DNA from: Diospyros lotus
Taxonomy: Eukaryota; Streptophyta; Magnoliopsida; Ericales; Ebenaceae
Length of the DNA stretch: 64,000 nt
NCBI RefSeq assembly: GCF_014633365.1
Contig: NC_068349.1
Location: forward strand, 13,256,753 to 13,320,752
Reading direction: 5' to 3'
Shown here: piece after piece, positions 4,926-60,579 of the stretch
Position numbering within the stretch: position 1 is the stretch's first letter
Layout of the letters: each line of letters starts with the position of its first letter
Made by a program: the position numbers and the translations under genes
Notes under the pieces: generated by a model
Seen by the model: only the letters and a program-made list of their open reading frames with translations
Told to the model about the DNA's origin: nothing
The model's database searches: none

Positions 4926-5660
4926 TCATCTCGAGGTGACTCTCATCCCTAAGCGTTGCGTCTCTTCTAGAATGACAAAGTTGTGGCTCACCCCTATATC
5001 TACCATTACTTGGCTAGATCTCCCATTGATGTTAGTTGGAAGAAACATCAGTTCTCTAGAAGTTTTCTTCACCTTTAGGGTTTTGAGAAAGGTTATCACA
5101 CCCCACCACACAAGTCCCTCTAACTCATCTATGTGAACCTTAGACCTCTTCTTGAACTCTTTCTCCATGGCTAGAAACTTCCCAACTTGGGATGATCTTT
5201 GACCAAATGTGGTCCTTGAGAAACATAGTACCCCTTATGAGGAACAAATGACGACTTCTTTTCTTCATAGTCTTCCTGACCATTTTACTGCCTTCCTATT
5301 CATTTTACTCTTGTGAGAAACCTTCCATCTGATTTCCCTACATTTGGATGAGCAGGCCTTTAAAGCCTATCTAGACTTCTCTTAGGAAGTCCTCTAAAAA
5401 TTTATTAAGACTTGGCTACTTGAATGGACTCATTCATAGTCTTCACCTTTTGCCTTTGGAGTTCCACTTCACCCAACTTTAAAGTTCATCATCAGTTAAG
5501 CTAGGAATCTATAAAGCTGCAAGGGTATACAATGTGATGCAATCCCTAATAGACAACTTGTGCTCCAAGCACTTCAATCTCACCCTTTCCTCATACACCA
5601 TGTTGTCAGGATAAAACTATTTCATGAGTTTAGAGTTGAACTCTTCCCATGTATTGATCT
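4926..5660 (-). pseudogene. decayed gag-protease of the gypsy element
   Basis: On the minus strand about 5660-5390 encodes a degenerate retrotransposon gag segment (WEEFNSKL, LKCLEHKLSIRD, SLTDDEL) with several stops. About 5225-5168 looks like a damaged zinc-knuckle linker. An open stretch at 5168-4926 carries the aspartic protease core. The motif reads MVDIGVSHNF where intact gypsy proteases have a DTGA-like site, so the catalytic Thr is replaced by Ile (ACA to ATA, a C-to-T change at 4995-4997). Gag would form the particle and protease would cleave the polyprotein. Neither can be made from this copy. The overlapping plus-strand frame at 4771-5136 is only a shadow. Confidence 0.65.
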
Positions 5661-5888
5661 GGCACTTCCATTGTTAATGTTAGCATGTTTCTTACACTAT
5701 CATGACACTAGTGTACTAATAAGAAAGTAGTAGTATCAATTTAAGTGACTAACCTTATGTCGATCCAACATCCTCCTTGTGAGCCTTGCTTGAATTGCTC
5801 ATCTTTTCCCACCTTGGGACTAAACTAGTCAATTTCTTTTTGAGTCTCCATTAACATGTTTTCCTCCTAGGTGTTTGTCATGGAATTC

Positions 5889-5900
5889 GCTATGATACCA
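5889..5900 (-). other. primer-binding site (initiator tRNA-Met type)
   Basis: The minus strand reads TGGTATCATAGC, one base from the usual plant TGGTATCAGAGC, three bases inside the 5' LTR edge. This fixes the element as minus-strand. Confidence 0.7.
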
Positions 5901-5903
5901 AGT

Positions 5904-7213
5904 TGTGACCTTAGAATACACCAAGCCAATCGTGTTAGTCTTAGCTCACAATCACCTGTCTGGTGATGGCTAAGTTAGCCTTCTTCTAGACCAATTCCCA
6001 TCTCGAGATCTTCTCATAACTAGAATCATTATCACTTGAGAACTTACGAGAATAAAGAAAGAACAAAAGAAATCTTAAGATAAAGCTTTAAGACGCTATT
6101 TTGATTATATGGATGGAATGAATACAAATGAGGAGAACACACATATTTATAGTTCTCAACTATGTGTATGAAATATTAAAACCCCTTTCTTGATCCCTAT
6201 TTACAACTCCTACAATGTATATCTTTTTATACTTCTCCAATAACTTGGATAGGATAGAATCTCTCGAAATCTCATCTCCAAGGCTTTCATGCAGTGGATC
6301 CAATTGCATCCCGCCATATGTCACACTGTCAAGTTCCATGTGGCATCTTTTTGATAAGTCTTCTCTCCTCTAACCATGTGGCAACTCTAAGAATAAGAAC
6401 TATTCCTTATCTTGACCATATGGCAGTCCTCCAAATTAGTCTTTCATTGTGTTGAATATGGAGATTGATCTTCTTATGCTATGTAGTTTTACCAAATCAC
6501 CTTCATGTGATTTGCCTGTAGCACCAAGTTTGCATGTACAATCACTTCTCTGTGTTCTATTAGTTGCATCCAATCACCATGCATTATCACACCTTCTTGA
6601 TTGGTTAGTTGCATCTACTCAAACACCTAGTCATATGACCTTATCGTGTCCTTATCACATATCCCTATTTGCTATGTGCCTATGCAGCATTTTCATGTTG
6701 CTTACATCTTCTTAAAGTATTTATCCCTAATAAGCACACCATGCTACTCCTTGTGCCATCTTTATCGCATGCCACAAAATCCTATCCTCTTGTTAACTCG
6801 ACTGCCTTTACCTGTATCACCTATACCATTTGGGTTATCACCGCATTCCCTTAGTTTGAATCTTGCATCTATCCTAGCTTAGTCCTACCACCTAGCCTAG
6901 TGTGGTCTAATGTGGCCCAACTCCTCATCCACTCTATTCTTTATCTCTATCTACTTATAAGGCCTAACCTAATCCAACTTACTCCATCTGTGCCCCAATT
7001 GTGCCATTTGACTTGCCTTTATTCACTTATAAAGCCCATCATGATGTTGCCCATTGTGCCCATCTTCAGCAAGGCTAACCCAACTTTGTAGCTTGGTTCA
7101 CCTCATCTTAGTCATATATCTGACTCATGGGCTTTTTCCATATCAATTTGCTCTTTAGCTCCTCAGTCCTATCAAACACATGAGGAAGTAAATAAATTAC
7201 CAAGGGTGGAACA
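5904..7213 (-). repeat. 5' LTR of the gypsy element
   Basis: This 1,310-bp uninterrupted LTR is next to the primer-binding site at 5889-5900. It serves as the empty-site reference for the solo LTR in the partner copy: here the sequence reads 'aaatcctatcctcttgttaa' without interruption near 6775. A minus-strand TATA-like box lies near 6148. The copies differ at many positions, so the element is old. Confidence 0.8.
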
Positions 7214-7504
7214 CAAGCCCTCTATCCATTTCCTCAAGTCCCATGGCTAAATTTGCCAATGGATGCCCATAAGAAAGATCAAAAGGCAATGCTTCAAGTT
7301 GCATGTGGATCCTTCAATCAAATGTCAAGATCAAACAAAGAGTTCTACTTAGAATTATTTAGATGAAAATTGATTTTGTTAGAATCATTTTAATTGATTT
7401 GAAAATAATTTTATATTTTATTTATGTTTTTTCTTTAAGACAAAACTTGTAAATATTTGCTTCTTTTTCCACAACTAAATAATGAGAACATCACAAGTTT
7501 AAAT

Positions 7505-8569
7505 TGTTGAGCCAATTTGTTCTATTTAATTTTCAATTAAATTTTGGTAATTAATAAAAATAATATTTTGTATCTAATTATTTTTTATTAATTTATAAAA
7601 TATTTTGGCATAATATATGTATTATTAAAATTAGTATTTTCCATTAAAATTATTTTTCAAGTAAGTAAAAATTCAAACAAAAATTAATTTTTTTTTACTG
7701 TTGTTACAGTACTCTACAGTGCGCTACAGTTTGCTTTAGTACGCTATAATGCGCTACAATAATTCGACCGTTGTAAACAGTAAATTCGATCATTGTAAAT
7801 AGTAAATTTGACCGTTTTGAATAATATTTTTCAGAATTCCTATAAATACCTCCAAACTCATTTTTGAGATATCTAAGTGCTTTCATTGCATATTCAAAGC
7901 ACCTGAAAGCTCTCAAAGACTCTCAAGCAAAACATCCAATTAATCCGAGATGCTCGAAACATTATTGCACATCTACCGAAGAGCTACAAGGTAAGAGGAG
8001 AAAAGTTCTTCAAATCTTATACGACAAATTCGAACTTCTCCATTTGAGGTTATAAATTTATTTATTTTATTTATATTTCATTTGCCTTATATAATTTGTT
8101 CTTAATTCCTTATTTATTTGTGTCCAAGTGTGGATAATTATTTATAAACTTTTAAACTATCGTTATGGATTGTATAGGTTTCCTAGAATCATTAAAATCT
8201 ATGTGAATCTAATTTTCAAAATAAGTTAGAGTGGAAACTTTAGTGTAGTGAATCTAGTTTTCAAAGTGAGATAGTGTGAAAATATTAGTGAGATTGGTTT
8301 ATTGGAATCCCAAGGGTAGTTAGATCTTAAGAGAATGGACTAGGTATGTGTGGAGACATCGAACTACTTAAAATTACCAACTGTCTCATTTTATTTATTA
8401 TTGCTATATTTTGTGGGTTATATTTATTATCAATCTCAAATATCATTTATTATATTTATCAAATATATATATTCTAATAAAATCATTAATCAAAAATATT
8501 TATTAAAATTAAAAAAAAATAATCATTCAATTCACCCTTCTTGAGTGGTCATACCTTAAGGGACCAACA
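7505..8569 (+). mobile_element. solo LTR (family A, copy 2)
   Basis: This 1,065-bp sequence begins TGTTGAGCCAATTTG and ends GGGACCAACA, flanked on both sides by a perfect 5-bp duplication TAAAT (7500-7504 and 8570-8574). A TATA box CCTATAAATACC near 7849 on the plus strand sets the orientation. A small tandem series of 'acagt.cgctac' units lies at about 7705-7760. Confidence 0.85.
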
Positions 8570-29504: not shown

Positions 29505-32032
29505 TCAAGAATAAGATCTGATCAACCCCAAATTGTAGAGATTCCTCCTCACTAGACTCCCAAGCGATAACAACATGGCCCCGCCGGACCCAACTGTGGG
29601 TTCATCCCTCTCGGCCTTTTGATGAGAGATCGGTGGCAATTCCTTCACTTTCAAGTCACTCATTCCGATTGCCTCTCGTACTGATTCGATGATCTTTGGA
29701 TCTGCAGGGTTCCCCTTTGCATCCGTCACGTAAAAGACGTTTAGAGCTGTATCCATTTGTGTGGAAATTTCTGCCCTTGTCACGTTAAGACCATTCTCAC
29801 GGAAGGTTCGGGTTACATCTGCCAACAGCCCCCTCCTATCTGCAGTGCAAAGCTCTAACCTTACTCCCTGCGATTAAAAAATAATCCTGGCTAGTGAGAC
29901 GACTAAACCTTCAAATTCAAAGGGAAAAATGAAATGCATAAATACACTTGTTGGTGAAGTTGAACCAAAAAGCAATACCTCCGATGCTCTCCTTCGGATA
30001 GCAGCCTGTAGGCATAGAATCACCCGTTCCTTTTCAGGTTCCGAACTAATAGGGGTACCATCCGCATGCCTAATGAAGAACTCCTGAAACCGCGAAATAG
30101 ACCAATGTTAATCTTACTGATAGATTTGAGCGGAATACAAAAATTGAAAACATATGGGGGAAAATGTTATCATACCAAATATGCTAGCTCCCCTTCTGTG
30201 TCAATGGTGGCATGAAAGACCACATATTCCATATCCGTCAACGTGCACACAACATCAAACAGAAGCTTTGCTCGGTCCTTGCACTGAATGTTCAAGACAG
30301 AATAGCCCCGCTCCAAACAGTTTTGAACCGTGACAAGAGGACAATCAGAACTAGTCCTTATAATAGGCTTGCGCTCATAATCACGATCTGCAAACATCAT
30401 CTGATGTAGTCTTCTCTCAGTGTGTGTAACAGCCATAGAAACAGATGTCTTGGCACTTCGAATATCGTTGTCCCCTTTAAGGACATTTCTCAACCGCCCT
30501 TCAATTTTGTCGATCTTCTGGGAGTCTTCAATTGGAGAACCTGAATCGCAGTCCTTAACGTGAATGAGGGAAGCAATTCTTCCATTATGTGTCCACACTT
30601 TAGCTTCAACCACATTGCATTCCAGATCAGCTAGTACCGCAAAAACCTCTGATAATAGGCCAAGCCGATCTGTACCAGTTAGCTCAAGAGCTGTCAAGCC
30701 ATCGAAGCTTTTTGATCTCGTATGATGGATTGTACCTAATGACTGCACAGAGACAGTTCACCCAAGTCAATGTTAGATCAGAACAACAACTAAAATCATT
30801 TTAACTTCCCTCGATAAGTAAAGAACAATAAAATTTTAGAACAGTACAAGTACTTACTTGTTCAATGTAGCTTATAACACTCTTGTCCGTCAATTTGTTT
30901 CCGCTAAGATCAGTCACGTGAAAAACTGTAAATGCAAATTAAACCAACGGTAGTGAGTTTCAATAAATGTTACATTCATTGAATGAAAATAAATGGATAA
31001 CGGGAGCCTACGAGACGGGCACACTTCAGCAGAAAACATGAAAAACAAAGGGAATCGAAAAGTTTCATTGTACTCACCGTCCATGAACCACCTTCCATCA
31101 GAAGATATATAAGCCTTCTTAATAGTAAGGTTAAGATCTGTGAGAACTTGAACCGCTTCGAGAAGAATTCCGTGTTTTCTAGCACTATCAATCTAAAAAA
31201 GTCCCAAAAGAAACAAATAAAGAGGTTTAATAAATTTGTTTTTCAAGTTTTGTCATTATTGACTTGTTCTTTCGGTAGGGGTTCCGCGAAGCTTACCATG
31301 ACACGAGTAGCGTTGGAACAGCCAGCATTGTCGATCATTACCCTGCCAGAACAAGTGACGGAGACAAGTCAAGAGGAATTTCTTTTTCCCCAAATGCGAA
31401 GTTTGAACTCTAGGATGAGAACGTAAAATTGTCGTTAATGGCCCAAGATAGAGAGATATCAGTGGTCTTTAAAAGTGAACTACAGTGCGTTGAAAATTCT
31501 AAAAAGCAATACACCGAAATTGAGGAATGAGTCGAAGAAACTTCAAAACTACGAAATCAGAGCAAAAAATATAATTTAATCTACTCAAAAAATAGGCAAA
31601 ACTGAGTTACTGTGAATGTTAAAATGGAAATATTAATTCACAATTAGTCTAAAGGGAGATACGCATACCGAATCGAAAATTTTTGTGAAATAAGTGTTTC
31701 AGATATCAAAAAGAAATTAATACAGAGTTTCGAAAACTTTGCATAAAAAGTATTTTTCTTAAAAACAAAACTGCAACAGAATAGTTCAAGGGAGCAGCGC
31801 ACGGAGTCGATCGAAACAACCAGTCCTCGCCAAAATTTCGAGGGAAAAAATTGCAGAAACGGTTTCATTTGCCAAACCAAAAGCAATATTCAGAAAAATC
31901 AAAAGCAAGAACTAAAACCGAGAGAGATGCGTGTGGTAGGGGCTTGAGAAACAGAAAGAGAGAAACTAACCTCGGCGTGGTCATCCGTATAACAAGCTTC
32001 TCATATTCATCCAAATAGGCAGGCCACTCCAT
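29505..32032 (-). CDS. ACR8: ACT domain-containing protein ACR8-like (seven coding exons)
   Basis: The product belongs to the plant ACR family: cytosolic or nuclear proteins built of four ACT repeats, thought to sense amino acids or small ligands, with no catalytic domain and no settled biochemical role. Coding exons on the minus strand are 32032-31971, 31342-31297, 31192-31078, 30925-30858, 30742-30176, 30083-29979 and 29867-29505. All six introns (92-628 bp) are GT-AG and phases join without a stop. The protein is 441 residues, by recollection the same length as Arabidopsis ACR8. The start is the ATG of [13 protein letters not shown], matching the ACR8 N-terminus. ACT repeats lie near residues 35-95, 114-190, 240-320 and 323-395; [33 protein letters not shown] and the C-terminal LIRSYS are family signatures. 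Closest remembered homologue is ACR8, over ACR4/5/6. Arabidopsis ACR8 is reported as ABA-inducible. No damage is seen. Confidence 0.95.
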
Positions 32033-46509: not shown

Positions 46510-47452
46510 ATGATGAACGGGATGTTTCCCTTCCAATTTCCAAAACTCACCAAGGAGAATTATGACAACTGGTGCATCAGAATGAAAGCTTTGCTGGGAT
46601 CGCAAGATGTGTGGGAGATTGTAGAAAAGAGATGTGACCAGCCGGAGAATGAGAGAGTAATGACGGCTGCCCAAAGAGATGCTTTACAGAAGGAAAAAAA
46701 GAAAGACCAGCAAGCACTTACTCTTATCCATATGTGCTTGGATGAGAGTATGTTTGAAAAAATCTCTATTGCAACAAGTGCAAAGGATGCATGGGAGGTT
46801 CTCCAAAATTCATTTAAAGGGAAAGACAAAGTAATTAAAGTGCGTCTGCAAACTATGAGAGGTGAATATGAAAATCTCAAGATGAAGGACTCTGAATCTA
46901 TTGAAGAGTATTTTAATAGAGTTTTGACAATTGTTAATCAATTAAAAAGATATGGAGAGGCGATGACAGACGTTCGTGTGATTGAAAAAATTCTTCGTTC
47001 CTTGATTCCAAAATTTGATTATGTTGTAACTTCCATTGAAGAGTCAAAGGATTTGGGGTCAATGACAATAGATGAACTCTTGGGTTCATTACAAGCCCAT
47101 GAAGAATGATTAAAGAAAAGAGAATAGCCTATTGCCCATGTATTACAGGAAAAACTGAATTTGAATGAAAAGGAACATATGCAGCAACAATCTGTTGGAG
47201 GACGAGGTAGAGGCCGAGGAAGAGTAAGAGGTAGAGGTCGAGGTTGGACTCGTGGAAGAGGTAGAGGAGGCAGAACTTTTCCTAACATTGAAGAACTAGA
47301 TTTTCAGTAACAAAAGTCAAGAGAACCAGATTTTCAGCAACAAAAGTCAAGAGGACGTGGCAGAGGTGGCTGGTTTCAAGGTGGTCGTGGTCGGAAATCT
47401 AATGTACAATGTTACAATTGTCAAGGATTTGGACATTTTGCTGCAGATTGTA
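46510..47452 (+). pseudogene. copia gag (three in-frame stops)
   Basis: The gag (nucleocapsid) domain reads from [16 protein letters not shown] through a 199-codon open stretch to 47109. The same frame continues past TGA (47107), TAG (47125) and TAA (47308), through an RG-rich basic linker (47194-47400) with a small internal duplication, to a perfect CCHC zinc knuckle CYNCQGFGHFAADC (47410-47451). The knuckle binds element RNA. Stops in CGA- or CAA-like positions are explicable by C-to-T change. It joins protease in the same frame, as usual for a single copia polyprotein. Confidence 0.88.
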
Positions 47453-47454
47453 GA

Positions 47455-47754
47455 TTGAATTCAAGCAGAAATGAACGGGCAAATTTTGTTGAGGCCAAAG
47501 AATATGAAGATTCCGCTTTGTTGCTGACTTGCAATGGAGATGACGAAAGGAATCATGATTTTTGGTATCTTGACTCAGGAGCTAGTAATCACATGACTGG
47601 TAATAAAGATTTGTTTTGTAGTCTTGATGAGTTTATTAAAAGTAGTATTTCTTTTGGTGATAAAACTAAAGTTCCAGTCATGGGCAGAGGAGATATTCTT
47701 ATTAGACTAAAGAATGGAGATCACCAATTTATTTCTCATGCTTATATTTTCTAG
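47455..47754 (+). pseudogene. copia aspartic protease
   Basis: Continues in the gag frame. WYLDSGASNHMTG holds the catalytic DSG (Asp at 47572-47574). The frame ends at TAG 47752-47754, and integrase resumes in another frame just after, so a small indel lies near 47755. Without the frameshift this would cleave the polyprotein. Confidence 0.85.
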
Positions 47755-47759
47755 CCTTA

Positions 47760-48907
47760 AAAACAAATATTTTGAGTATTGGGCAGCTTTTGGAAAAAGG
47801 GTATGAGATAGAGATGAGTAAGAGTGGGCTGGCTATGAGAGCTGGAAAAGGGAGAATGATAGCAAAAGTTCCATTATTGAAAAACAAAATGTTTAAACTG
47901 AAAATCAACAGTGATAGTCCCAAGTGTTTAAAGGCTACTACAAATGATTCGTCATGGCTGTGGCATCTTAGGATGGGTCACTTAAATTTTGGAGGACTGG
48001 AGCTGCTGTTCAGAAAAAAGTGGGTGCATGGTTTGCATTTCATTAGTCATCCCAATCAAATTTGTGAAGGCTGTATGTATGGTAAGCAGACCAGGAAGAG
48101 TTTTCCGAAAGAGTTTTTCTTTTGAGCCTTACAGCCACTTGGATTGGTGTATGCTGATTTATGTGGTCCTCTCAAACCAAATTCCTACGGGGAGAACATG
48201 TATTTTTTGTTGTTTATTGATGATTATACTCGCAAAACTTGGGTTTACTTCTTGAAAGAAAAATCTGATGCATTCGAAGTTTTCAAGAAATTCAAAGCTC
48301 AAGTTGAAAATGAAAGTGGTTGTTCTATTAAAGTCATACGAACTGATCGAGAAGGGGAGTTCACATCAAGCAAGTTTAATCAATTTTGTGAAGATCTTAG
48401 TGTACGACATTTGTTGACTGTTCCAAGGTCACCCCAACAAAACGGTGTTGTAGAGCGAAAAATAGAACCATTCTTAACATGGCTCGCAGTATGCTTAAGA
48501 GCAAGAGGATGCCAAAGGAGTTTTGGGCTGAAGCAGTGGTGTGTGCAGTTTATTTGAATAATCGAAGTCCAACAAAGAAATTGATGCAAATGACTCCACA
48601 AGAAGCATGGAGTGGAAAGAAACAAGATATTTCTCATTTGAGAGTGTTTGGTAGTATTGGTTATGTTCATGTTCCTGATGAAACAAGAAGTAAATTGGAT
48701 GATAAAAGTAAGAAACTTGTATTTATTGGTTATGCAAAAAATTCGAAGGGTTATAAGCTTTATAATCCTCAGAATGGAAAAACTGTCATTAGCAGAGATG
48801 TGGAGTTTGATGAAGATGGCTCTTGGGAGTGGAATGTTCCTCAAGATGAAAATTATAATTTTCTTCCTTTATTTGATGATTTTTTGGCTACAGATCAGCC
48901 TCAAAAT
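47760..48907 (+). pseudogene. copia integrase (stop and frameshift)
   Basis: An N-terminal zinc-binding part (LWHLRMGHLN ... CEGCMYGK) is followed by the catalytic core with the D-D-E residues in YADLCGP (48156), RTDREGEF (48345) and NGVVERK (48453). The second motif has Glu where most relatives have Gly. A TGA at 48123 interrupts in frame. A one-base shift near 48462 moves the rest ([16 protein letters not shown]...) to another frame, which runs to 48907, where the solo LTR begins. Integrase would join the cDNA to host DNA; here it is dead. Confidence 0.88.
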
Positions 48908-50682
48908 TGATAGAGTTGTAACCTGGGAGCCAATCATAAGAGTTGTGAGTTGGCTGCATTTCTAATTAATCTTGGACATATTTTGATTAATATATGTATT
49001 TCTCTTATAATACATGGCAATATGTTCATCTTTATATTTTACTATTTAGATGAGTCCTAAAGAGTATAGCAATGTCAATCGAGTTATGATGAGATCATAC
49101 TAATGAGATCGAATGACTAATGCTTCATTCTTTAACTATTCCTGGTCATAGGACTATAGAGTGGGGCCTCTATAGTACCGTTAAGACCAGTACACACTAT
49201 GCATGCTCGTAAGGAGGGTAGTTGATCTCATTGACTACTTGTGTGGTGACACTAATGCAAGTATGTAGGTGCTCATTAGTGAATGAGTTCACTGAATGAC
49301 CTAACTTGAGAACACTCAAATGGTAATTCTTACTAAATGTCAATTGGGAGTTCTATGTGGCGACAAGTGCTAGTAATCTCTTTTCCTGAGGTATCACAAT
49401 TATCTTGTATGAGGAGTGTCATGTTTTGATGCTACTGTATGGGGTCTAGTAAGATGGGTCCCTAATAAGGTGGTTATTAAATATGATCCGAATCATACGA
49501 AGGTAGGTGAGTACGCAAGATGGAATCTATCGACCTTAGTAAGATTTAAAAGATATATGCCCTATGTGAATGATGAAGTCACAACTTGAGGAGTCGTTGG
49601 CAAACGTAGAGAGTTGAGAATTAATAAGAGTTATTAATTCGACTATATGAGTTGTGGACTTAACATTCGTACACATAGTGTTGGTTATTAGAAGTTTGAC
49701 ATTTTACCATACTTCTAGACTATACCGGGGCATTATGATAGAGGGATCGAATAGCACTGAAACTTGTCACGGAAAGGTTCATTAGAAGTGTCATTTGCAT
49801 TTCATTATGATATGAGGGCGCCATGATACGTTGCTAGACGTCAATCTTGGTCTAAGGACAAGATAATAATTTTACTCATATGATGAAATAAATTAAGGAT
49901 CATAATGAAAGAGTTTTATTAGGAGTAGGATTTTATAAATTGCCCTTTGTCATTTTCATAGTGAACCTATTAGGTCACACACAAACAAAGAGGAGTTTCA
50001 TGAAAATTTTAGTGGGACCGAAAAATGTTTTTGGGGCCCATAAGAATTCGTGGATTTTTGGGGTGAGCTAGCACTCGCGGAAAAGTCAATGAGATGTCGA
50101 CAAAATGAGCAAAAAGTAAAACAAGGTAAGAAACCCACAATTGGGTTTGGGCCTTGGTCCAACATGTTTATAACATGTTTGGGTTTTCTTTAAATCCTTA
50201 GTTTGACTAGGTTTTGGGTTGGGCCTTGGCCCAACATGTTTATAATATGTTGGACCAACTATAAATACCTAGTTTGACTAGGGTTTGTTAATGGCTCTCC
50301 ATTTTGCCTCATAACCCCTTTGGCTTTCTAGAGAGAGAAAGTTGGTTTTTGAGAAAAACCAACCATATCTCTAAGTGTTGGATTAGATCTTGCATGGTTG
50401 ATGCAAGGAGATCAAAGGGGCGTGCTCATAGACATCGATTGAAGCATCTCTTTGGTGTGGATCACTTATAGAGGGTGGGTAACACCTCGTGGCACAAAGA
50501 TTCATCCATTCTTCATCGGACAATCAAAAGGTTTGATTTTTCATTATATATTTATATTCTTGAAGTGATTATATATTTACAAACTAGATCCGTTCATTTT
50601 GGGTTTCAAGATTAACCAAAGAGTTTGGTTGATCCAAATAATTTTTAAATTTTCGCTGCGTTTGGATCCAAGAAACCCAACA
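48908..50682 (+). mobile_element. solo LTR inserted between copia integrase and RT (family D)
   Basis: The 1,775-bp sequence starts TGATAGAGTTGTAACC and ends AAGAAACCCAACA, flanked by AAAAT (48903-48907) and AAGAT (50683-50687), a 5-bp duplication with one G/A change. A TATA box (CTATAAATACC near 50259) and a U5-like end give plus orientation. No internal domain remains, so it arose by recombination between two LTRs of a larger element. It contains tandem 'ttggtccaacatgtttata' phrases at about 50150-50250. Confidence 0.82.
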
Positions 50683-50781
50683 AAGATCAAGTTGTTGCTG
50701 CTGTTACACCACAAACTTCTCTTCGTATAGCTCAAACAGATCCAACAAATTTGTCTTCTCAAAGCTCCTCTCATAACTTTT

Positions 50782-51600
50782 GAGGAAAGATGGAGATTGG
50801 CTATGGCCGAAGAGGTGAAATCCATTGAAAGGAATAAAACTTGGTAGTTGGCAACACTTCTGGAGGGAAAACAACCTATAGCAGTAAAGTAGGTTTACAA
50901 AATAAAGAAGAATGCTAAAAGAGAAGTGGAGAAATACAAAGCTCGGCTTGTTACGAAGGGTCTCACTCAAAGGGCTAGAATTGATTATGATGAAGTCTTT
51001 GCTCCAGTGGCTCGCTTGGAAACTATTCGGCTAATTATTTCATTAGCAGCTCAACCAAATTGGAAGATTTTTCAGATGGATGTAAAATCAGCCTTCTTGA
51101 ATGGAACTTTAGAAGAAGAGGTTTATGTGGAGAAACCATTGGGTTATGTTGTTGAAGGACAAGAAGACAAGGTGTTGAAATTAAAGAAAGCTTTATATGG
51201 CCTTAAACAAGTCCCAAGGGCCTGGTACGCCTGTATTGATGAATATTTCCAGAAAAATGATTTTTCAAGGTGCCCTTATGAACATGCTTTGTATGCGAAG
51301 GAGAATAAGGATGGAGAAATTATGTATGTTTGCTTATATGTTGATGATTTGATCTTCACTGTGAGTAATCTGAGGATGTTTGAAGAATTCAAGGAAATGA
51401 TGATTGAAAAATTTGAGATGACTGATTTGGGACTAATGTCTTATTATCTTGGAATTGAGGTGAAGCAAAGAGAAGAAGGGATTTTTCTTTCCCAAAAGAC
51501 TTATGCAGAAGCAATCTTGAAAGAATTCAAGATGGATAGAATCAATTTAGTTGCTACACCTGTGGAATGTGGAGTTAAGTATTCTAAGTTTGACAGTACT
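50782..51600 (+). pseudogene. copia reverse transcriptase
   Basis: From RWRLAMAEEVKSIERNKTW the frame runs through two TAG stops (50845 and 50890, each where Trp is expected, so TGG to TAG) into a long open stretch. Motifs: YKARLV.KG, DYDEVFAPVARLETIR, MDVKSAFLNG, LYGLKQ.PRAW and the catalytic YVDD box at 51337-51348. It copies element RNA into DNA in an intact element. The RT core from 50926 is uninterrupted, so this part decayed least. Confidence 0.92.
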
Positions 51601-51974
51601 AAAAAGGTAAACCCAACTCTATTTAGAAGATTGGTTGGAAGGCTGCGTTTTTTAACCTGTACAAGGCTAGATATTTTGTATGGAGTTGGTGTTATTAGTC
51701 GTTATATGGAAGCTCCAACTTTGACTCACATGAAGGCAGCCAAAAGGATTCTTCGATATGTTATAGGGACATTGGATTATGGTTTATTTTATACTACTAC
51801 AAATGATTGCAGATTGTGTGGGTTTAGTGACAGTGATTAGGGAGGAGACATTGATGATCGAAAAAGTACTAGTGGTTTTGTTTTCTTCATAGGCACTGCT
51901 GCATTTGCTTGGAGTTCAAAGAAACAGTCAATTGTTACTCTTTCAACCTGTGAAGCTGAATATGTTACAGCAGT
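51601..51974 (+). pseudogene. copia RNase H, 5' part
   Basis: Same frame as RT. The RVVGRL-type connection is followed by MKAAKRILRYVIGTLDYG, a TAG at 51838-51840 (again at an expected Trp), then DDRKSTSGFVFF, AWSSKKQ and STCEAEYV up to the insertion of the 8.6-kb element at 51975. Confidence 0.88.
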
Positions 51975-53917
51975 TGATTAGTGGTTAATTTTGTAAAATT
52001 TTGTTATAATTATAACCCCCGTTTTGATTTTAAATTGGTTTAATTGAATAGTTATGTATAATATATATAATATAATATATTATAATAAACATGTAAATAT
52101 AATATATTTTATAACATAATACATATACTCAATGGAGTGCATGCATGGAGCATCTATATAATATATCATATAAATATATACATAATATATAATTTAATAA
52201 CACTCAATTGCTTGCTTGTAGGGATGAAGAAGGTGGGCTTGAAGATTCAAATTGAATTGAAGAATGAAGAATTCAAACCCAACCCATGAAGAATTAAAAC
52301 CCAACACATGCCCATTAAATTAAAGGCCCAAGGCCCAACACATGTTTAAGACCCAACTTGAGCAAGCTCATGAAAGACATCATTTGGAGAAGGCCCAAGC
52401 ATTTTTTTTAATCCTAATGAAGACCAAAAACTCAATTGTAGAAATTTATTTTTTTATTTTTAAATATTTGTTTTATGAGTGCTTTATTAGGTGTGTTTTT
52501 TTTAGCTAAAATCCATTTAACTTTATGAGTGCTTTATTAGGTGTGTATTATAGCTAAAATCCATTTAACTTTATGAGTGCTTTATTAGGTGTGTATTATA
52601 GCTAAAATCCATTTAACTTTAGATGTATATTATAGCTAAAATCCATTTAACTTTAGGTGTGTATTATAGCTAAAATTCATTTAACTTTATGTGTGTGAGT
52701 GCCCATTAGATATAATTATGTCTAGTTAAATAATTAAAATTGTGTGGTTTGCATTGCATCTTGTGGGGTATAAATAGTTCACTTGATTGCATTTGTAAAG
52801 GTGATTATTATTCTTAAATCAAAGTTTAGTTGTTTTCTTAGAATTTTCTCTTTGAAAATTGTTTTCGTTCTCTCTTATTTTCTCTATTGTTTTCTCTTGT
52901 GATCTTACTTTATTTCTTTCTTTTATTGAATTCTTATGTCATTTATTGTTATTTTATTATCTACCGCCTAAATGGCCAGTTAATTTATGCCTTTAAATTT
53001 CTGCAATTTTAATTCATGTCATTTTATTATCCACCGCCTACATGGTCGGTTAATTTCTACTATTTTAATTTTTGTCATTTAAATTCTTTTATTTAAATTA
53101 TGTCCTTTAAATTCTGTCAATTAATTTCTAAATGGAGATGAGTAACTAAATCCAATCATGGGTTAAGGCAAGGACAGTGTCCAACACCAATGATTCTCAA
53201 AGAAAGCTGCGCTTTAAATGAGTGACATTAATTTAAATTTCAGTATGGATGTGTAGTAATTATTGAGAAATAACTAGGTTTGGATTGGAGCGTAAGCCTA
53301 ACCTAGACCTTTCATGCCATGTATGGGAGTTACTAGAACTGAAAACGCTATCATACCCAAACTCGAATGATTAATTTAGTTATTTTGTGTATTAATTGTA
53401 ATTGAATTTATGGTAATTGCTTAAATTAGAATCCTGCATATCATGTATGGGGATTGCTTAAACTAGAATTATCATAATCTCTAATTGCATTTAATAAGAA
53501 ACACTCATATATGAAATTAAATTAATGTTACTAATCTTTTCTGCTAAAATTTGAGAATCAACGGGTTGGTGCTGAAATTATCTTAACTCAAGTGTTATCC
53601 AATTTCATATTTTCACATTTAACGTTTATTTTAACTTCTACTTTGCTTTATTTCCTAGTATTTGTTATTTAAAAAATCATAAAAAAAATCTTATTACCAA
53701 TTCATCCAAATGCGTGTACATGTGCATGACATTCTTTTTCTTTTGCCATAAATAAATCTCTCAGTGGACGACCTGGACTTATCCAGAAAATATAAATTTA
53801 AATTTGAACTACAACTGCATTCGTACACTGACGAGTATAAACCTCTCACCTAAATAAAAAAAATTAAAGTTGATTATGTTTTTATTGTGTTTTAATTGCA
53901 GGGTGAGAGTGCAGCTA
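51975..53917 (+). repeat. 5' LTR of the LOG-carrying element
   Basis: 1,943 bp, TGATTAGTGG...GCAGCTA. TATA box GGTATAAATAG near 52768. Contains a tandem array of five units at 52472-52686, one more than the partner LTR. Confidence 0.88.
52472..52686 (+). repeat. tandem repeat inside the 5' LTR
   Basis: Three ~48-bp units (tttatgagtgctttattagg...tttaac) are followed by two shortened ~34-bp units. The matching array in the 3' LTR (59184-59348) has four units. Confidence 0.8.
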
Positions 53918-53922
53918 AATTT

Positions 53923-53940
53923 TGGCGCCGTTGTCGGGGA
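53923..53940 (+). other. primer-binding site, tRNA-Asp type
   Basis: TGGCGCCGTTGTCGGGGA begins five bases after the 5' LTR. It differs at one position from the TGGCGCCGTTGCCGGGGA site known in Athila-like elements. Confidence 0.8.
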
Positions 53941-54137
53941 GATTGAGGCAAAAACAAAAAGAAAAAAAATTATAAATTAAAAAAATAAAAAATAAATAAA
54001 AAATAATAAAAAAATATATTTAGATAACTATTAGTTACTAAACAGTGCAAGAGACTAGGGTCAGGTATGATTATTGAAACATTAATTGATTCATTAGCAT
54101 CATTATCTGTCATTGAATTGTCATTTTCATATTCTTT

Positions 54138-54633
54138 ATGTCTCATTATTTTAGCATTTCTGTGTCTTCTAATGCATTTGGCCATCGTAAGCCCAGTGAG
54201 GGGAGGTTTTCTTTTAACCAGAGTCAGAGGGCGAATTCTTATCTGTCGGGCTACGACCCGGATCTTTACACTGATTACCCCAGTTCCTATGACCATTGGA
54301 ATTATCCTTGGAACGATGACTCTTTGTTCCAATCTCATTAACCTTTCTCTCCAGTATCTCACCAATTCGAGTTAGAACAAGGGGTTACATCTGATACTTA
54401 TCAACCTCAGGATAAAAATTTTTTAGAGGACACCCTTCAGGAGTTTATGCAAGGTCAAATGAGTTTTAATGCACAAGTGGCCGAATTTCAAGAACAAACT
54501 ACTAGGGCCATATGTGACATTTTAGAACAGTTGATTGATCTTACACAGATCTCGAGCGTGAGTGAGCCCGACGAGTTTCAAACCAACCCAATCAAAATTC
54601 CGAAGGGGGGAAATCGTCATTTAATGCGCCCAT
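54138..54633 (+). pseudogene. gag-like remnant of the LOG-carrying element
   Basis: One frame, broken by a TAA at 54339-54341, encodes a Tyr/Asp/Trp-rich segment (YDPDLYTDYPSSYDHWNYPW). It continues with a glutamine-rich, coiled-coil-like stretch (LEDTLQEFMQ ... EFQEQTTRAICDILEQL) to 54633. Such a low-complexity then heptad-like arrangement occurs after the gag core in some Ty3/gypsy elements, but I see no gag core or zinc knuckle, so this is a guess from composition. Confidence 0.4.
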
Positions 54634-54643
54634 AGGTCAAGAG

Positions 54644-54991
54644 TTGGTCCAATTTACATCAATCCCTAGGAATGATGAGCCAATTGAGAGACTTGATGAA
54701 CCTAGAATGGTACAAGCAATCATAGAAGAAAAATTGGACCAAAATGATGTGAGAAAAGAAGAAGTCTGGGAGGAAGAAGAGGATAAAATTCGAGAGCCAA
54801 AATGTGAAGAAGTCATAGGTCTATCCACATTTAAACCTAAATTTTTATCTTTTAGGCTAGTCTATATTATTGGGGATCAAATTAAATCAGACATGTGTGA
54901 GGTGTTTATACGAATTAATATGCCATACTCTGATGTAATAAAACCAACACCTCGGATGATATATTTTCAAAATATGTATGTGCATTCATGA
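54644..54991 (+). CDS. unrecognised 115-codon ORF in the LOG-carrying element
   Basis: Begins MVQFTSIPRND and has a strongly acidic central part (KEEVWEEEEDKIREPK) followed by a more hydrophobic, neutral C-terminal part. I do not recognise the family. It follows the gag-like remnant by about ten bases in another frame and could be its frameshifted continuation. It may be a conserved part of this retroelement family and not a host gene. Expression is unlikely. Confidence 0.3.
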   Translation: MVQFTSIPRNDEPIERLDEPRMVQAIIEEKLDQNDVRKEEVWEEEEDKIREPKCEEVIGLSTFKPKFLSFRLVYIIGDQIKSDMCEVFIRINMPYSDVIKPTPRMIYFQNMYVHS

Positions 54992-55612
54992 GAAAAATCA
55001 ATTTACATAATTTTGAAAATAACTTTAAAAGTGGTGTAATGAATGAGAGTTATTATACGATTAGGTTGGCAACCACTCATTTGATCCTTAACTAGAAGAA
55101 AAGAAAAGAAAAATCTAAAAAAATAAAATTAAAATATATAATAAAATAAAAATTTGTTTTTTTAAATAAATAAATATATATATATATATATACAAAAAAA
55201 AAAGATAGAGAAAAAAGGGAGACAGAATTGACTCTAGTGGTAGCCATTTTTCTTGGGCAGTGCAATCACACTACCTTATAAAGAAAGAGGCATATTGCCA
55301 AATGTTGAAAAATGAGACGCTAAATGACGCCAAGACTGACGGTGCAATTATGGCATGCCTCGAGCTGAGTGTAAAAAATTGATACCCATTGCTCTATAAG
55401 AGACTCTATATTTGTATGAGGTAAGCCACACTTCTTAAGCTCAGTCTTCTCTCATTTGTGTTATTCTACAATCAGGTACTCTCATCCATTTTGCAAGGTT
55501 CATAATTCCTTACTTTCTTATTATTATAGTTGTCTTTTTTTTTTTTAAAAAAAAAATGAATCTTCAGCTCTCAAAAATTTGTAAGTATTATCCATCTCTC
55601 CTGTAGAATGAT
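54992..55612. other. non-coding interior of the LOG-carrying element
   Basis: A-rich and (TA)n sequence (55170-55190), then unlabelled sequence and a T/A homopolymer junction (55538-55557) just before the next coding-like fragment. No domain. Confidence 0.5.
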
Positions 55613-56149
55613 TTGAAAAAAATTGATGCCGCTAGGTGTGAAAGACTTAGGCTGTTGATGCGTAATAACATCCCTGAAGATATTCGTTGGCTGATCGAAA
55701 CAAAAGTTCGATTAGCTGGCAAAATTTCACCTAGTTTTAAGCACTTTCCAGGCTTAACGAAGAGTAGTTTTGCGAAGAAACGAAGATCGAAAAGAGTGAA
55801 TGGTTGTTACAAATGTGTTTGATGGACCTGTAACACATGATGCAAATCTGTGGGGTTTACGTCCATAAATCGAGAAGATAAAATTAGTTTCACAAAGGGT
55901 GGATTGAGTAAGGAGTCTTTGGATGATATCCGATTGACTCTTGAGACGCATCCATGTGGAATAGTGCAAAAAGAACTTCTTGCTTTATGGACCCAGTTCA
56001 TAAGTGACGACCAATACTATAGTCTTGGGAATCTGACTAAAAACGACCCTGTTTGCCAATCTATAAGAAAATTGGATGGGAAGCCTATCCCTACTTCATA
56101 GAAAGTGTTTAAGCCGTTTCTGGACGTAAAACTAGAGAAAGATGTGAGC
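55613..56149 (+). pseudogene. unidentified coding-like fragment, broken
   Basis: A 69-codon basic frame (DAARCERLRLLMRNN ... AKKRRSKRVNG) ends in a stop at 55820. In another frame an 83-codon stretch (SINREDKISFTKGGL, LDDIRLTLETHPCG, LWTQFISDDQYYSLG) runs to 56101, and sequence after that stop still reads as FKPFLDVKLEKDV. Two frames with similar coding texture suggest one older gene with a frameshift. After 56141, 'gtgagccac...ttgtatag' to about 56220 looks like a short intron. I do not recognise the protein. It may be a second captured host fragment or an element-specific ORF. Confidence 0.4.
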
Positions 56150-56270
56150 CACAATCACAACTATTTGTATATACGCATGATTTTTGTTTGTATATTTATT
56201 TCTTGTTGAATTTTTGTATAGCTACTTTTGATCGCCAAACCTCTTTCCAGGGTATACAAAAGGAACAAAC

Positions 56271-56930
56271 ATGGAAGGCCAGTTAGTTCGTCGAATCAAT
56301 ACCATATGTGTAGTTTGTGGCTCTTAACTTGGGAGCGATATTTGTTACGCACTTGCAACAAGCAAACTTGGACAAAAATTGGGAGAGCAAAAAATTAATT
56401 TGGTATATGGAGGGGGAAGTCGTGGATTGAATGGTTGTGTTTCATAAGCTGCACATCTTGAAAAATCATGTGTGGTAGGTGTAATGCCAATCTCTTTGGC
56501 TGAACCACATATTTTCGGGATTACACGTGGTCAACTTATAGAAACGACTTCTATGTCTGAGTGCATGACTTGTAAGATTTATCAATCAGACGCCTTCATT
56601 GGTTTACCAGGAGGTTTTGGAACATTTGAAGAAATCTTTTGTATAATCTCCTGAGCTAAGAGTAATCTCCATACCAAACCCATTGGACTTTTAAATGTTA
56701 ACCATTTTTTCGATGGGTTGCTCTCTTTTCTTGATCAGGCTGTGGACTAAAAGTTCATTTCTCTTTTAGCAAGAAAGATTCTCATTTCAGCATCCACCAT
56801 TGAGGAGCTGCTAGAGAAATTACACACTTATGTTCCACAGCATGATCCTCTTGAGTCTCGGATAGACTGGTCTAAGGCAATCAGTAACAAGCGCAAAAGG
56901 GGTCCGATTAATTTAGATTTATCACTATAA
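56271..56930 (+). pseudogene. LOG-family cytokinin riboside 5'-monophosphate phosphoribohydrolase retro-pseudogene
   Basis: LOG enzymes release active cytokinin base from its riboside monophosphate in the cytosol. One frame of 220 codons covers a full LOG-like protein without introns, although plant LOG genes have several. Signatures: a Rossmann start (ICVVCGS), KINLVYGGGSRGLNG, VGVMP, SDAFIGLPGGFGTFEEIF (PGGxGTxxE at 56607-56633), [20 protein letters not shown] and a basic, LDLSL-ending tail typical of a divergent LOG-like clade. Four in-frame stops occur (56325, 56445, 56652, 56748) and no frameshift. The active-site Arg expected in the M.(Q/E)RK motif is Cys. Stops at expected Gln and Trp and the Cys fit C-to-T/G-to-A decay. 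It cannot make an enzyme; a transcript is possible. Confidence 0.88.
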
Positions 56931-57029
56931 TGAGTGCTATTTGTTGAGATGGCTGAGTAAGAAGTACTTTTTATACTCTTGAGACACATCTATTATTGTA
57001 CAACTACAGGATATTTCTTGGTTGTGTTC

Positions 57030-57060
57030 CTAAAAAAAAAAAAAATAATTAAAAAAAAAC
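57030..57060 (+). other. A-rich tract 100 bp after the LOG-like pseudogene
   Basis: Two A runs (about 13 and 9) separated by 'taatt' follow the stop codon at the distance of a short 3' UTR. Taken with the missing introns it could be the remnant poly-A tail of a reverse-transcribed LOG mRNA. A similar phrase, 'gatggctgagtaag.a.tactttttatactcttga', occurs before (56948-56983) and after (57095-57129) the tract, which may mark a duplication. Confidence 0.5.
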
Positions 57061-57129
57061 TGTGGAATATTGTTAGGTAAGTTTATGATAAGATGGCTGA
57101 GTAAGGAATACTTTTTGTACTCTTGAAAT

Positions 57130-58723
57130 GTATTTTGTTTATCTTATGACTTGCATGAAAATTTTATTTTGGTGTGAAAATATAAATATATATATATATG
57201 GTATGCTAATTTATTTATTTGAGTTTTAACAGTTCACAGTAAATCTATGGACTTATGGAGTTACAGGTATTCCTAACAACCTTAGTTTATTACTGTAATT
57301 CCGATTGGGGAGTGTAACGTCTAGTTATGAATTATCTGGTTCATGTTTAACTATGAGTTTGCTATTGCTTGCTTGTAGTCTTGTGGGAATTGATTATCTT
57401 TATCTGCTATTATTTAAAAAAAAAAATGTGTGTTTTAAATTACGCTATCCCTAAAGTTTTGGAGTTATGCATTAATAGTCGGTTAAGTTTGCAATACGAA
57501 ACATGACTGTATTTGATTTCTTATTTGAAAACGAATATGCATTAGAACAAGTAATTTGCATTCATCGGATATTCAAAATTTAAAAATTGGTTATTAGTCA
57601 TAAAGTCAAAGGTAACAGTAATTAGCTGATTAGTACACTGTATGATCCTTCAGCAGAAGTGGAGACTATTACCCAAGTGAGTGTTTGAGCCTAATAACTA
57701 TTAATTCTGAGTGAAATAACACTTACTCTAAATATGCTTTATTGTTTATCTTATTTTTTCAATAGTTTCAAAACATCAATTCGCTTTGAATGTCTAGTAT
57801 GATAACAGATGAATTTGACTAGTTTCAAACTTCGAATTAGATCGTTTTGTAGAAGCATGATAAGGGGATCAATTTATTTCATTTTGTGCCTATTAACCTT
57901 TTTCTTTCTTTAAATTAACCTCTCTTGCTAGCCCATTTGAGCCATTTGTAGTACAATTTCTTTCATTACCCTCGTTTAACCCATAATCATATGAATTTTG
58001 TCCAACCTGGTGTGTTTTTGAGGATTAGTCTATCTAGCTATTTTCATATTTAAAAAAAAAAAGAAAGAAAAAAAAAATGAAAAAATGGGAAATTCTCTTA
58101 GTTATTCAGTACAATTGTTTCAAAATAAATGCTAAAAAAAAATTGCCAACACACCATTTGCATACTCTACCTTTTCTTTGACAACTCGTATTAACCTCAT
58201 AGCCCCATTACAACCCGGTCTGGTTTCTCTTGATGCTATAAATCATGTGATCTCAGAATTCGAGTTTAGACGTAGGGAATTGAGTTTAAATTCGGAAGTT
58301 ACTCATCTAGAGCATTATTCCAGTCATGAAGCTATGTCATTTTCCCTGTTCTTTCATGAAAATACGTTCTTTGTATTTGGGATGACACTGATTTTTGAAC
58401 TTGTTCTGCATTTACTCTTATAACAGTGCACCCCCTTGTGTGTACACCTGAGGAATCCTTTTTATTGGAGGAAAAATCCATAGTAAGGTTTGAAGTTAAA
58501 ACTTCGAAGGAGTAAGTCTGTTTGTTGGTTATCCTAATTGTCATTCCTGAGATTGTATGACCTTTAACCAAAAATTTGATTTAGAATGCTAAATTATTTT
58601 TTCGATTTTATGCATTTCGGTTTTGAATTTGAAATTTTTACATTCATACAGTTATTGCGAATAAAGCTTGGTAGGTGTATAGTCTGATTGCTAAGGGACT
58701 AGTAATGTTTAAGTTGGGAGGTA
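57130..58723. other. non-coding interior and polypurine end of the LOG-carrying element
   Basis: About 1.6 kb without a recognised domain; an 81-codon frame at 58178-58423 has no family resemblance. It ends in 'ctaagggactagtaatgtttaagttgggaggta', the purine-rich end preceding the 3' LTR. Confidence 0.5.
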
Positions 58724-60574
58724 TGATTAGTGGTTAATTTTGTAAAATTTTATTATAATTATAACCACCGTTTTGATTTTAAATTGGTTTAATTGAATAA
58801 TTATGTGTAATATATATATATAATATATTATAACATAATACATATACTGAATGGAGTGCATGCATGGAGCATCTATATAATATATCATATAAATATATAC
58901 ATAATATATAATTTAATAACACTCAATTGCTTGCTTGTAGGCATGAAGAAGGTGGGCTTGGAGACTCAAATTGGATTGAAGAATGAAGAATTCAAACCCA
59001 ACCCATAAAGAATTAAAACCCAACACATGCCCATTAAATTGAAGGCCCAAGGCCCAACACATGTTTAAGGCTCAATTTGAGCAAGCTCATGGAAGACATC
59101 ATTTGGAGAAGGCCCAAGCATTTTTTTTAATGAAGACCAAAAACCCAATTGTAGAAATTTATTTTTTATTTTTAAATATTTGTCTTATGAGTTCTTTATT
59201 AGGTGTGTTTTTTTAGCCAAAATTTGTTTAACTATTAGGTATGTATTATAGTTAAAATCCATTTAACTTTATGAGTGTTTTATTAGGTGTGTATTATAGC
59301 TAAAATCCATTTAACTTTAGGTGTGTATTATAACTAAAATCAATTTAACTTTATGTGTGTGAGTGCCCATTAGATATAATTATGTCTAGTTGAATAATTG
59401 AAATTGTGTGGTTTATATTGCATCTTGTGGACTATAAATAGCTCATTTGATTGCATTTGTAAGGGTGATTATTATTCTTGAATCAAAACTTAGTTGTTTT
59501 CTTAGAATTATCTCTTTGAGAATTGTTTTTGTTCTCTCTTATTTTTTCTATCGTTTTCTCTTGTGATCTTACTTTTTTTCTTTCTTCTCTTGAATTCTTA
59601 TGTCATTTATTGTTACTTTATTATCCATCGCCTAAATGGCCGGTTAATTTCTGTCTTTAAATTTCTGTAATTTTAATTCCTGTCATTTTATTATCCACCG
59701 CCTACATGGCCGGTTAATATCTGCTATTTTAATTCTTGTCATTTAAATTATGTTATTTAAATTATGCCATTTAAATTCCTGTCAATTAACTTTTAAATGA
59801 AGATGAGTAGTTAAATCCAATCTTGGGTTAAGGCAAGGATAGTGTCCAACGCCAATGATTCCTAAAGAAAGCCGAGCTTTAAATGAGTGACATTAATTTA
59901 AATTTCAGTATGGGTGTGTAGTAATTATTGAGAAATCACTAGGTTTGGATTGTAGCGTAAGTCTAAGTTAGAGCTTTCATGCCATGTATGGGTGTTACTA
60001 GAACTAGAAACGCTATCATACCCAAACCCAAATGATTAATTTAGTTGTTTTGTGTATTAATTGTAATTGGATTTATGGTAGTTGCTTAAATTAGAATCCC
60101 GCATATCATGTATGGGGATTGTTTAAACTAAAACTATCATAATCTCTAATTGCATTTAATAACAAACCCTCATATCTGAAATTAAATTAATGTTGCTAAT
60201 TTTTTCTGCTAAAATTTGAAAATCAACGGGTTGGTACTAAAATTGTCTTAACTGAAGTGCTATTCAATTTCATATTTTCACCTTTAACGTTTATTTCAAC
60301 TTCTGCTTTACTTTATTTCCTAGTATTTGTTATCTAAAAAAACTATAATTTTTTTTTTTGTTACCAATTCATCCAAATGTGTGTGCGTGTGTGTGACATT
60401 CTTTTTCTTTTGCCATAAATAAATCTCTCAGTAGACGACCTGAACTCATTCAGAAAATATAAATTTAAATTTGAACTACAACTGTACTCGTACACTAACG
60501 AGTATAAACCTCTCACCTAAATAAAAAAAATAAAAGTTTTATTGTGTTTTTATTGTAGGGTGAAAGTGTAGCTA
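58724..60574 (+). repeat. 3' LTR of the LOG-carrying element
   Basis: 1,851 bp, TGATTAGTGG...GTAGCTA, collinear with the 5' LTR. Tandem units occur four times at 59184-59348. A further length difference is a missing 'ataataaacatgtaaatata' type stretch near 58825. Confidence 0.88.
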
Positions 60575-60579
60575 GTAGT

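Follow-up and report, generated by a model that had tools for sequence, protein, structure and literature searches.

Why would a retrotransposon carry a gene for a cytokinin-activating enzyme? The question arises from a 64,000-nucleotide stretch of the Diospyros lotus genome (here called the window; NCBI RefSeq assembly GCF_014633365.1, contig NC_068349.1, positions 13,256,753 to 13,320,752, forward strand). In it, a sequence-only reading had recognized a full-length, intron-less LOG gene inside an LTR element and had proposed that the element captured it from a host hormone gene. The placement is as described. Specifically, the segment at 56271–56930 (+) matches the LOG family (PF03641, E = 1.8e-26, translated with X at stops), lacks introns, and lies in the sense orientation between two direct repeats. 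Its completeness did not survive inspection: in-frame stops occupy codons 19, 59, 128, and 160, and the ORF list contains no frame of 80 or more amino acids overlapping the segment. Relative to intact copies, three Gln codons and one Trp codon have become stops through C-to-T or G-to-A changes, and there is no frameshift; we infer that this pattern is the one expected of a methylated element. The stop at codon 128 is common to several copies, as TGA in the window and in copy L027, and as TAG in L009, L018, and L020. With two forms present, the Trp codon may just as well have decayed repeatedly by G-to-A change, and the common stop was not taken to prove amplification of a dead LOG. Translation of the window segment also reads a basic KRKR stretch (56889–56900, +), of a type conserved in relatives, ahead of a C-terminal LDLSL (56913–56927, +), an EAR-type LxLxL ending.

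The carrier, at 51975–60574, has the features of an LTR retrotransposon: paired LTRs identified by self-comparison (5′ LTR, 51975–53917, +; 3′ LTR, 58724–60574, +), a primer binding site (TGGCGCCGTTGTCGGGGA, 53923–53940, +), and a 5-bp target duplication that, by eye, contains one difference (gcagt, 51970–51974; gtagt, 60575–60579). The primer binding site, which we take to be of the tRNA-Asp type, is shared in place and nearly in letters by copies L012, L016, and L025. Downstream lies a decayed ORF1 (54067–55100, +, limits approximate) that by eye resembles the 347-codon ORF1 of copy L041. The ORF1 kept in the window element and in other copies without pol looks gag-derived; that of L012 aligns with the gag region of the gag-pol element L045 at 64.8% over 480 bp. 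The window element has no pol. It does have a second accessory gene, overlooked in the sequence-only reading: a decayed gene for a carlavirus-type nucleic-acid-binding protein (NABP) at 55556–56101 (+), interrupted by three in-frame stops. Directly after the LOG segment comes a 41-nt repeat (56942–56982 and 57086–57126, 88% alike), and an A-rich tract lies at 57032–57059 (+). Short tandem repeats in the LTRs (52487–52696 and 59233–59360) differ in number between the two.

The LTR pair has a K2P distance of 0.082, which marks the insertion as old. Its host site is the RNaseH region of a Ty1/copia element (46510–51974 and 60575 onward, +; gag, 46510–47109; RT ORF, 50926–51840, RVT_2 match 1.6e-75) whose reading resumes after 60575, the nesting being judged by eye. 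Elsewhere in the window, a 192-aa ORF with ACT domains (30170–30748, −; ACT 8.9e-15, ACR9-like 4.3e-9) probably represents one exon of an ACR-type gene of the host. No tRNA genes were found in the window.

Family placement comes from copies that retain pol. L045, the region upstream of L023, contains gag (PF03732, 3.6e-20) and aspartyl protease (1.3e-7), and the combined L045/L023 order is gag, protease, RT, RNaseH, integrase, NABP, LOG, 3′ LTR. The RT–RNaseH–integrase order is that of Ty3/gypsy elements. We take the family to be Athila-like, a label based on recall and domain order; the domain search of L023 reported no second RNaseH domain. In these gag-pol elements the accessory genes occupy the sense strand between pol and the 3′ LTR, and L022 has the same pol–NABP–LOG order as L023. 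No 5′ LTR was found in the 6.5 kb upstream of L023. Both pol-bearing elements, L022 and L023, carry a 1-nt deletion in LOG, and L023 also has a stop in NABP; none of the elements seen was thus both autonomous and fully intact. The element in the window, which belongs to this Athila-like Ty3/gypsy family, is old, non-autonomous, and decayed, and both of its accessory genes are broken.

The window copy is one of many. The sequence-only reading had suggested that, if other family members carry the segment, the element may have spread LOG-derived transcripts. Across the 630 Mb and 43 contigs of the host genome, a 27-base LOG tag (at most two mismatches) occurs 825 times (426 + 399; reversed control, 0) and an NABP tag 798 times (419 + 379; control, 0). 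The refutation named in the sequence-only reading, absence of the segment from the other family members, thus did not materialize. On contig C1, an exact NABP tag lies 550–700 bp from 35 of the 44 exact LOG tags listed. A LOG DNA query returned 895 first-look candidates, and all 40 places scored, the window included, match with E ≤ 3.3e-283. With Arabidopsis LOG3 as the query, the best 150 of 1030 candidates were scored; each is one unbroken stretch of 46–49% identity, 141 without an internal stop and 9 with one, an intact share that is biased upward because the scored places are the best-scoring ones.

Closer views of individual copies reveal both decay and recent movement. Among 20 stretches of 9.9 kb around the copies closest to the window (L009–L028), seven have an unbroken 219-codon LOG frame, and in the remaining 13 it is interrupted by stops or a 1-nt deletion. 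Self-comparison finds an LTR pair in 15 of the 20, in L020 only in pieces, and finds none within the 9.9-kb stretches of L009, L010, L022, L023, and L027. Eleven pairs were dated. The four youngest have 0 (L011), 0 (L025), 1 (L016), and 5 (L026) LTR differences in 1747–1822 sites, and their LOG and NABP frames are all open. L024 has 11 differences in 1790 sites, yet stops in both genes. Ten more short stretches, taken from LOG3 matches, supply eight full-length open LOG frames; of the remaining two, LOG in L034 stops at codon 200 and LOG in L036 is broken early. The element family has thus been recently active. Two individual loci have features of their own. In L010, with LOG on the + strand, downstream ORFs at about 5582–8203 resemble by eye an inserted hAT-type DNA transposon, and at G000:C12:24636212-24643574 two open LOG copies lie 6.8 kb apart on the same strand, perhaps as tandem or nested elements.

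Where did the LOG gene come from? Host LOG loci were sought with a DNA pattern, because element copies filled all 150 scored places of the protein query. The pattern for the canonical motif MHQRKAEM identifies eight loci, and the three fetched (L042–L044) are split by introns, while the element copies are unsplit, which bears out a retro-type origin. The sequence-only reading also pointed to the A-rich tract as a trace of the captured message. The tract is indeed present after LOG, but it stands at the same place in the eight other copies printed (interrupted in one, L027) and is thus element sequence rather than a captured poly-A tail. Copy number and the placement of this tract together rule out a processed pseudogene that landed in one element. 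LOG ancestry, an intron-less origin, and spread with the family therefore stand from the proposed retro-transduplication; recent capture of a local host LOG is not supported. In the LOG tree, whose canonical rows come from other plants rather than from the host's eight loci and lie outside the clade, the closest neighbors are LOGs of the element type from other species. The suggested pairing of element transcripts with host LOG mRNA likewise lacks support, since exact matches to three of the eight host loci reach 16 nt at most, short of the 21 nt of a small RNA.

The second gene connects the element to plant RNA viruses. In L012, NABP is an open frame of 181 aa ahead of LOG, with matches to Viral_NABP (4.9e-9; 36.9 bits against a cut-off of 23) and Carla_C4 (7.3e-5; 23.1 bits against 20.9). 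It has 493 relatives; among the 120 matches listed, identity is 59–91% and the plants named include Populus, Orobanche, Xanthoceras, Acer, and Rhamnella. A basic KKRRAK stretch and four Cys residues are nearly invariant in 60 NABP rows; the structure model is poor (pLDDT 64.8). In the accessible text of PMC12172455, viral relatives of this protein are silencing suppressors with a nuclear signal and a zinc finger, and one of them acts as a transcription factor. The element protein shares with the cysteine-rich NABPs of carlaviruses, allexiviruses, and mandariviruses, as that text presents them, a basic stretch followed by a Cys zinc finger (PMC12172455). It differs in being encoded by a retrotransposon and in being longer at its C-terminal side, and its suppressor role is a predicted one. 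Scans of viral contigs yielded no relative of NABP or of LOG. In three Orobanche species, at least 20 gene models carry NABP-type and LOG domains together, showing that the two genes also occur together outside Diospyros. Matches to LOG and NABP on contigs of equal length (8723 and 4511 bases) suggest a shared contig in other plants as well; equal short contigs, several of which are expected by chance, were left uncounted.

The element-type LOG proteins form a lineage of their own. In a 72-row tree computed without the tail columns, 56 element-type rows form one clade (99/95), and 10 canonical plant LOGs (99/95) and five Xanthoceras-type rows (100/94) stand apart. Relatives of element LOG and NABP exist in several eudicot families; the best database protein match of L012 LOG, 97% identical, is from Diospyros lotus itself. 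These proteins have the fold and the PGGxGTxxE motif that define a LOG. The fold model is confident (pLDDT 88.7) and superimposes on Arabidopsis LOG3 with TM scores of 0.76 by query and 0.95 by target; tail residues 206–218 fall below pLDDT 50. Residues were counted in 101 database rows, with canonical, Xanthoceras-type, and four duplicated-domain models excluded. Catalytic Arg99 and Glu122 are each present in 98 of these rows, and the PGGxGT loop is kept. The prenyl pocket is where the element proteins depart from the family. Lys100 and Glu125, which the available portion of PMC4979012 assigns to the proposed prenyl pocket of CgLOG, are retained in 2 and 1 of the 101 rows, respectively; all 11 canonical and all six Xanthoceras-type rows keep both. 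Lys100 is replaced by Leu, Ile, or Met in 97 of 101, and Glu125 mostly by His or Gln. With two precursor-pocket residues replaced in nearly all element-type rows, the reading as a cytokinin gene as such is not supported.

A second departure lies at the C terminus. Among 120 database matches, 86 end in LxLxL and five in a near form; nine are canonical, none of them with LxLxL, and the other 20 comprise fragments, altered ends, and Xanthoceras-type proteins. Four or five Lys/Arg residues occupy positions −16 to −6 before LxLxL in 76 of the 86. LxLxL is a short motif, and it is the EAR consensus in the accessible text of PMC6283911 and PMC9956375; by that consensus, the tail is of EAR type and a candidate TOPLESS-binding motif. 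The Orobanche set is instructive. Of its 30 rows, 22 are readable at the Arg site, and 20 of these have Asn or Ser instead; the LxLxL ending persists in 15 of those 20. There, the tail appears to outlive catalysis. Two Orobanche gracilis proteins (P0258 and P0259) represent a second NABP–LOG type in this genus, which keeps the catalytic Arg and has a degenerate tail (AFLSL), opposite to the prevailing Orobanche pattern. In Xanthoceras sorbifolium, six proteins (P0033, P0057, P0071, P0075, P0076, and P0081) combine a canonical pocket with a basic KKRRLA or KKRKLA end and no LxLxL, and this group has up to 39 members per 90% cluster. It may represent the element LOG at an early stage or, alternatively, a separate amplified family.

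Selection has left its mark on both genes. Comparison of open copies across subfamilies gives dN/dS values of 0.29–0.33 for LOG (five pairs) and 0.20–0.21 for NABP (three pairs); choosing open copies removes stops and leaves amino-acid changes. Translated in the two alternative frames, these LOG pairs yield 0.67–1.54. In 500 neutral simulations, scaled to the one pair L012–L029 (observed 0.33) and with stops forbidden, dN/dS has a mean of 0.80, a 95% range of 0.45–1.45, and a minimum of 0.32. The 25 most distant LOG pairs give 0.26–0.36; near-identical pairs lack such a surplus of silent changes, which is to be expected of changes that follow insertion. As measured by codon substitution, these values show purifying selection on both LOG and NABP.

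How the two genes might be expressed is hinted at by three motifs, aligned in a chosen subset of copies. A TATA-like CTATAA box, a putative internal promoter, lies about 160 nt upstream of NABP (55394–55402, +; 11 of 11 copies). It is followed by a putative splice-donor-like site, ATCAG/GTACTC (55471–55481, +; 10 of 11), and by a putative acceptor-like site, CTCTTTCCAG/G (56241–56251, +; 9 of 9; TTTYCAG/G in general form), 20 nt upstream of the LOG start. The arrangement would fit an internal promoter together with splicing that skips NABP to yield a LOG mRNA. Because the neighboring bases are conserved too, the motifs are only a lead.

What could the element gain from such a pair? RNA silencing and chromatin repression keep plant retrotransposons in check, and few of these elements are known to encode proteins against either. 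We propose that the putative internal promoter would produce a short RNA whose unspliced form encodes NABP and whose spliced form encodes LOG. NABP could blunt RNA silencing, as its viral relatives do, and the LOG-fold protein could enter the nucleus and use its C-terminal LxLxL tail to engage corepressors of the TOPLESS type. Members that keep the catalytic Arg and Glu may still be active on a changed nucleotide substrate. The notion is that, together, the two proteins would help the element escape or redirect host silencing. Thus, NABP and LOG may constitute a two-gene counter-defense module of an Athila-like Ty3/gypsy lineage, consisting of a virus-type nucleic-acid-binding protein and a LOG-fold corepressor ligand. 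We assign this reading a probability of about 50%; its mechanism rests on conservation and motif evidence. More tentatively, the pair may represent a eudicot-wide retrotransposon kit, a silencing-suppressor-type protein with a TOPLESS-hijacking, LOG-derived nuclear protein in which an enzyme fold, its catalysis gone and its tail retained in the Orobanche branch, is becoming a scaffold; this wider version is a possibility that we would not yet favor.

Other explanations must be weighed against the same data. If the LOG copy had been captured once and carried along without function, broken copies would be unsurprising, and the window copy and several older ones are broken; amplification of passengers is, moreover, possible for non-autonomous elements. 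Such a passenger would not be expected to have a dN/dS near 0.3 when the neutral mean is 0.80, to keep its active-site loop and tail in relatives from several plant families, or to accompany NABP in a nearly one-to-one ratio, and we consider it very unlikely. Selection on the LOG frame is equally what an active cytokinin enzyme would experience. In that scenario, raised cytokinin would yield dividing or meristematic cells and, with them, more chances for germ-line transposition. Most rows retain the PGGxGT loop along with catalytic Arg and Glu, and the fold model matches Arabidopsis LOG3, both of which are in its favor. The pocket speaks against it, with Lys100 replaced in 99 of 101 rows and Glu125 in 100 of 101, as does the Orobanche branch, which has lost the Arg and kept the tail, and we regard the scenario as distinctly unlikely.

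The altered pocket admits another enzymatic interpretation: the LOG fold could act on a different nucleotide, such as one that signals immunity or stress in the host, with the tail serving only to set a nuclear location. A catalytic pair that is kept beside a pocket that is changed consistently (with Lys100 giving way to Leu, Ile, or Met in nearly all rows) is what such an enzyme would present. Loss of the Arg with retention of the tail in Orobanche is difficult to accommodate, and we judge this interpretation unlikely.

Several known systems resemble parts of the counter-defense module. A YgdH/LOG domain occurs in LTR retrotransposons of Citrus and Populus trichocarpa (PMC9289625, citing Steinbauerova 2011). 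There, as here, a LOG-type domain is fixed in plant gypsy-type elements, and these elements probably belong to the same lineage as the window family. The accessible text of that account names no virus-type partner, EAR-type tail, pocket change, or selection on the LOG frame (PMC9289625). The elements described in the available part of PMC7264820 are similar in the position and strand of their extra gene, in its occurrence in many family members, and in a possible spliced message; their product is a transmembrane env-like protein, whereas here it is a LOG fold with a viral-type NABP. Orchid gypsy elements with an AlkB-type demethylase ORF, as excerpted from PMC9289625, likewise keep a captured enzyme domain. 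Theirs is a different enzyme with a narrow host range, in contrast to the second accessory gene and the several eudicot families found here. Finally, HaRxL21 and Jsi1 are pathogen effectors that bind TOPLESS through EAR motifs, according to the accessible text of PMC7446885 and PMC8126959. The likeness lies in the EAR motif and the host corepressor; here, by contrast, binding is predicted, and the motif sits on a LOG-fold scaffold encoded by a mobile element.

In the open-licence PMC literature, PMC9289625 was the sole match for a retrotransposon with YgdH, and no paper was found on retrotransposons with Carla_C4 or a carlavirus nucleic acid binding protein. Among the matches listed from that literature, titles and abstract openings likewise yielded no report of an EAR/TOPLESS retrotransposon or of a LOG/EAR transposable element. 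Within this literature, then, we found no earlier report of the virus-type partner, the EAR tail, or the altered pocket.

The attraction of the system is that a single lineage holds two genes side by side, both with the signature of selection, one related to viral silencing suppressors and the other encoding a LOG fold with a motif of the corepressor-binding type. Should the proposed functions prove true, the pair would parallel, in plants, the accessory genes of viruses, would connect plant RNA viruses with retrotransposons through a gene, and would exemplify a hormone enzyme turned regulatory decoy. The results also bear on annotation: in Diospyros and Populus, proteins of this kind carry the label of LOGL10 cytokinin enzymes.
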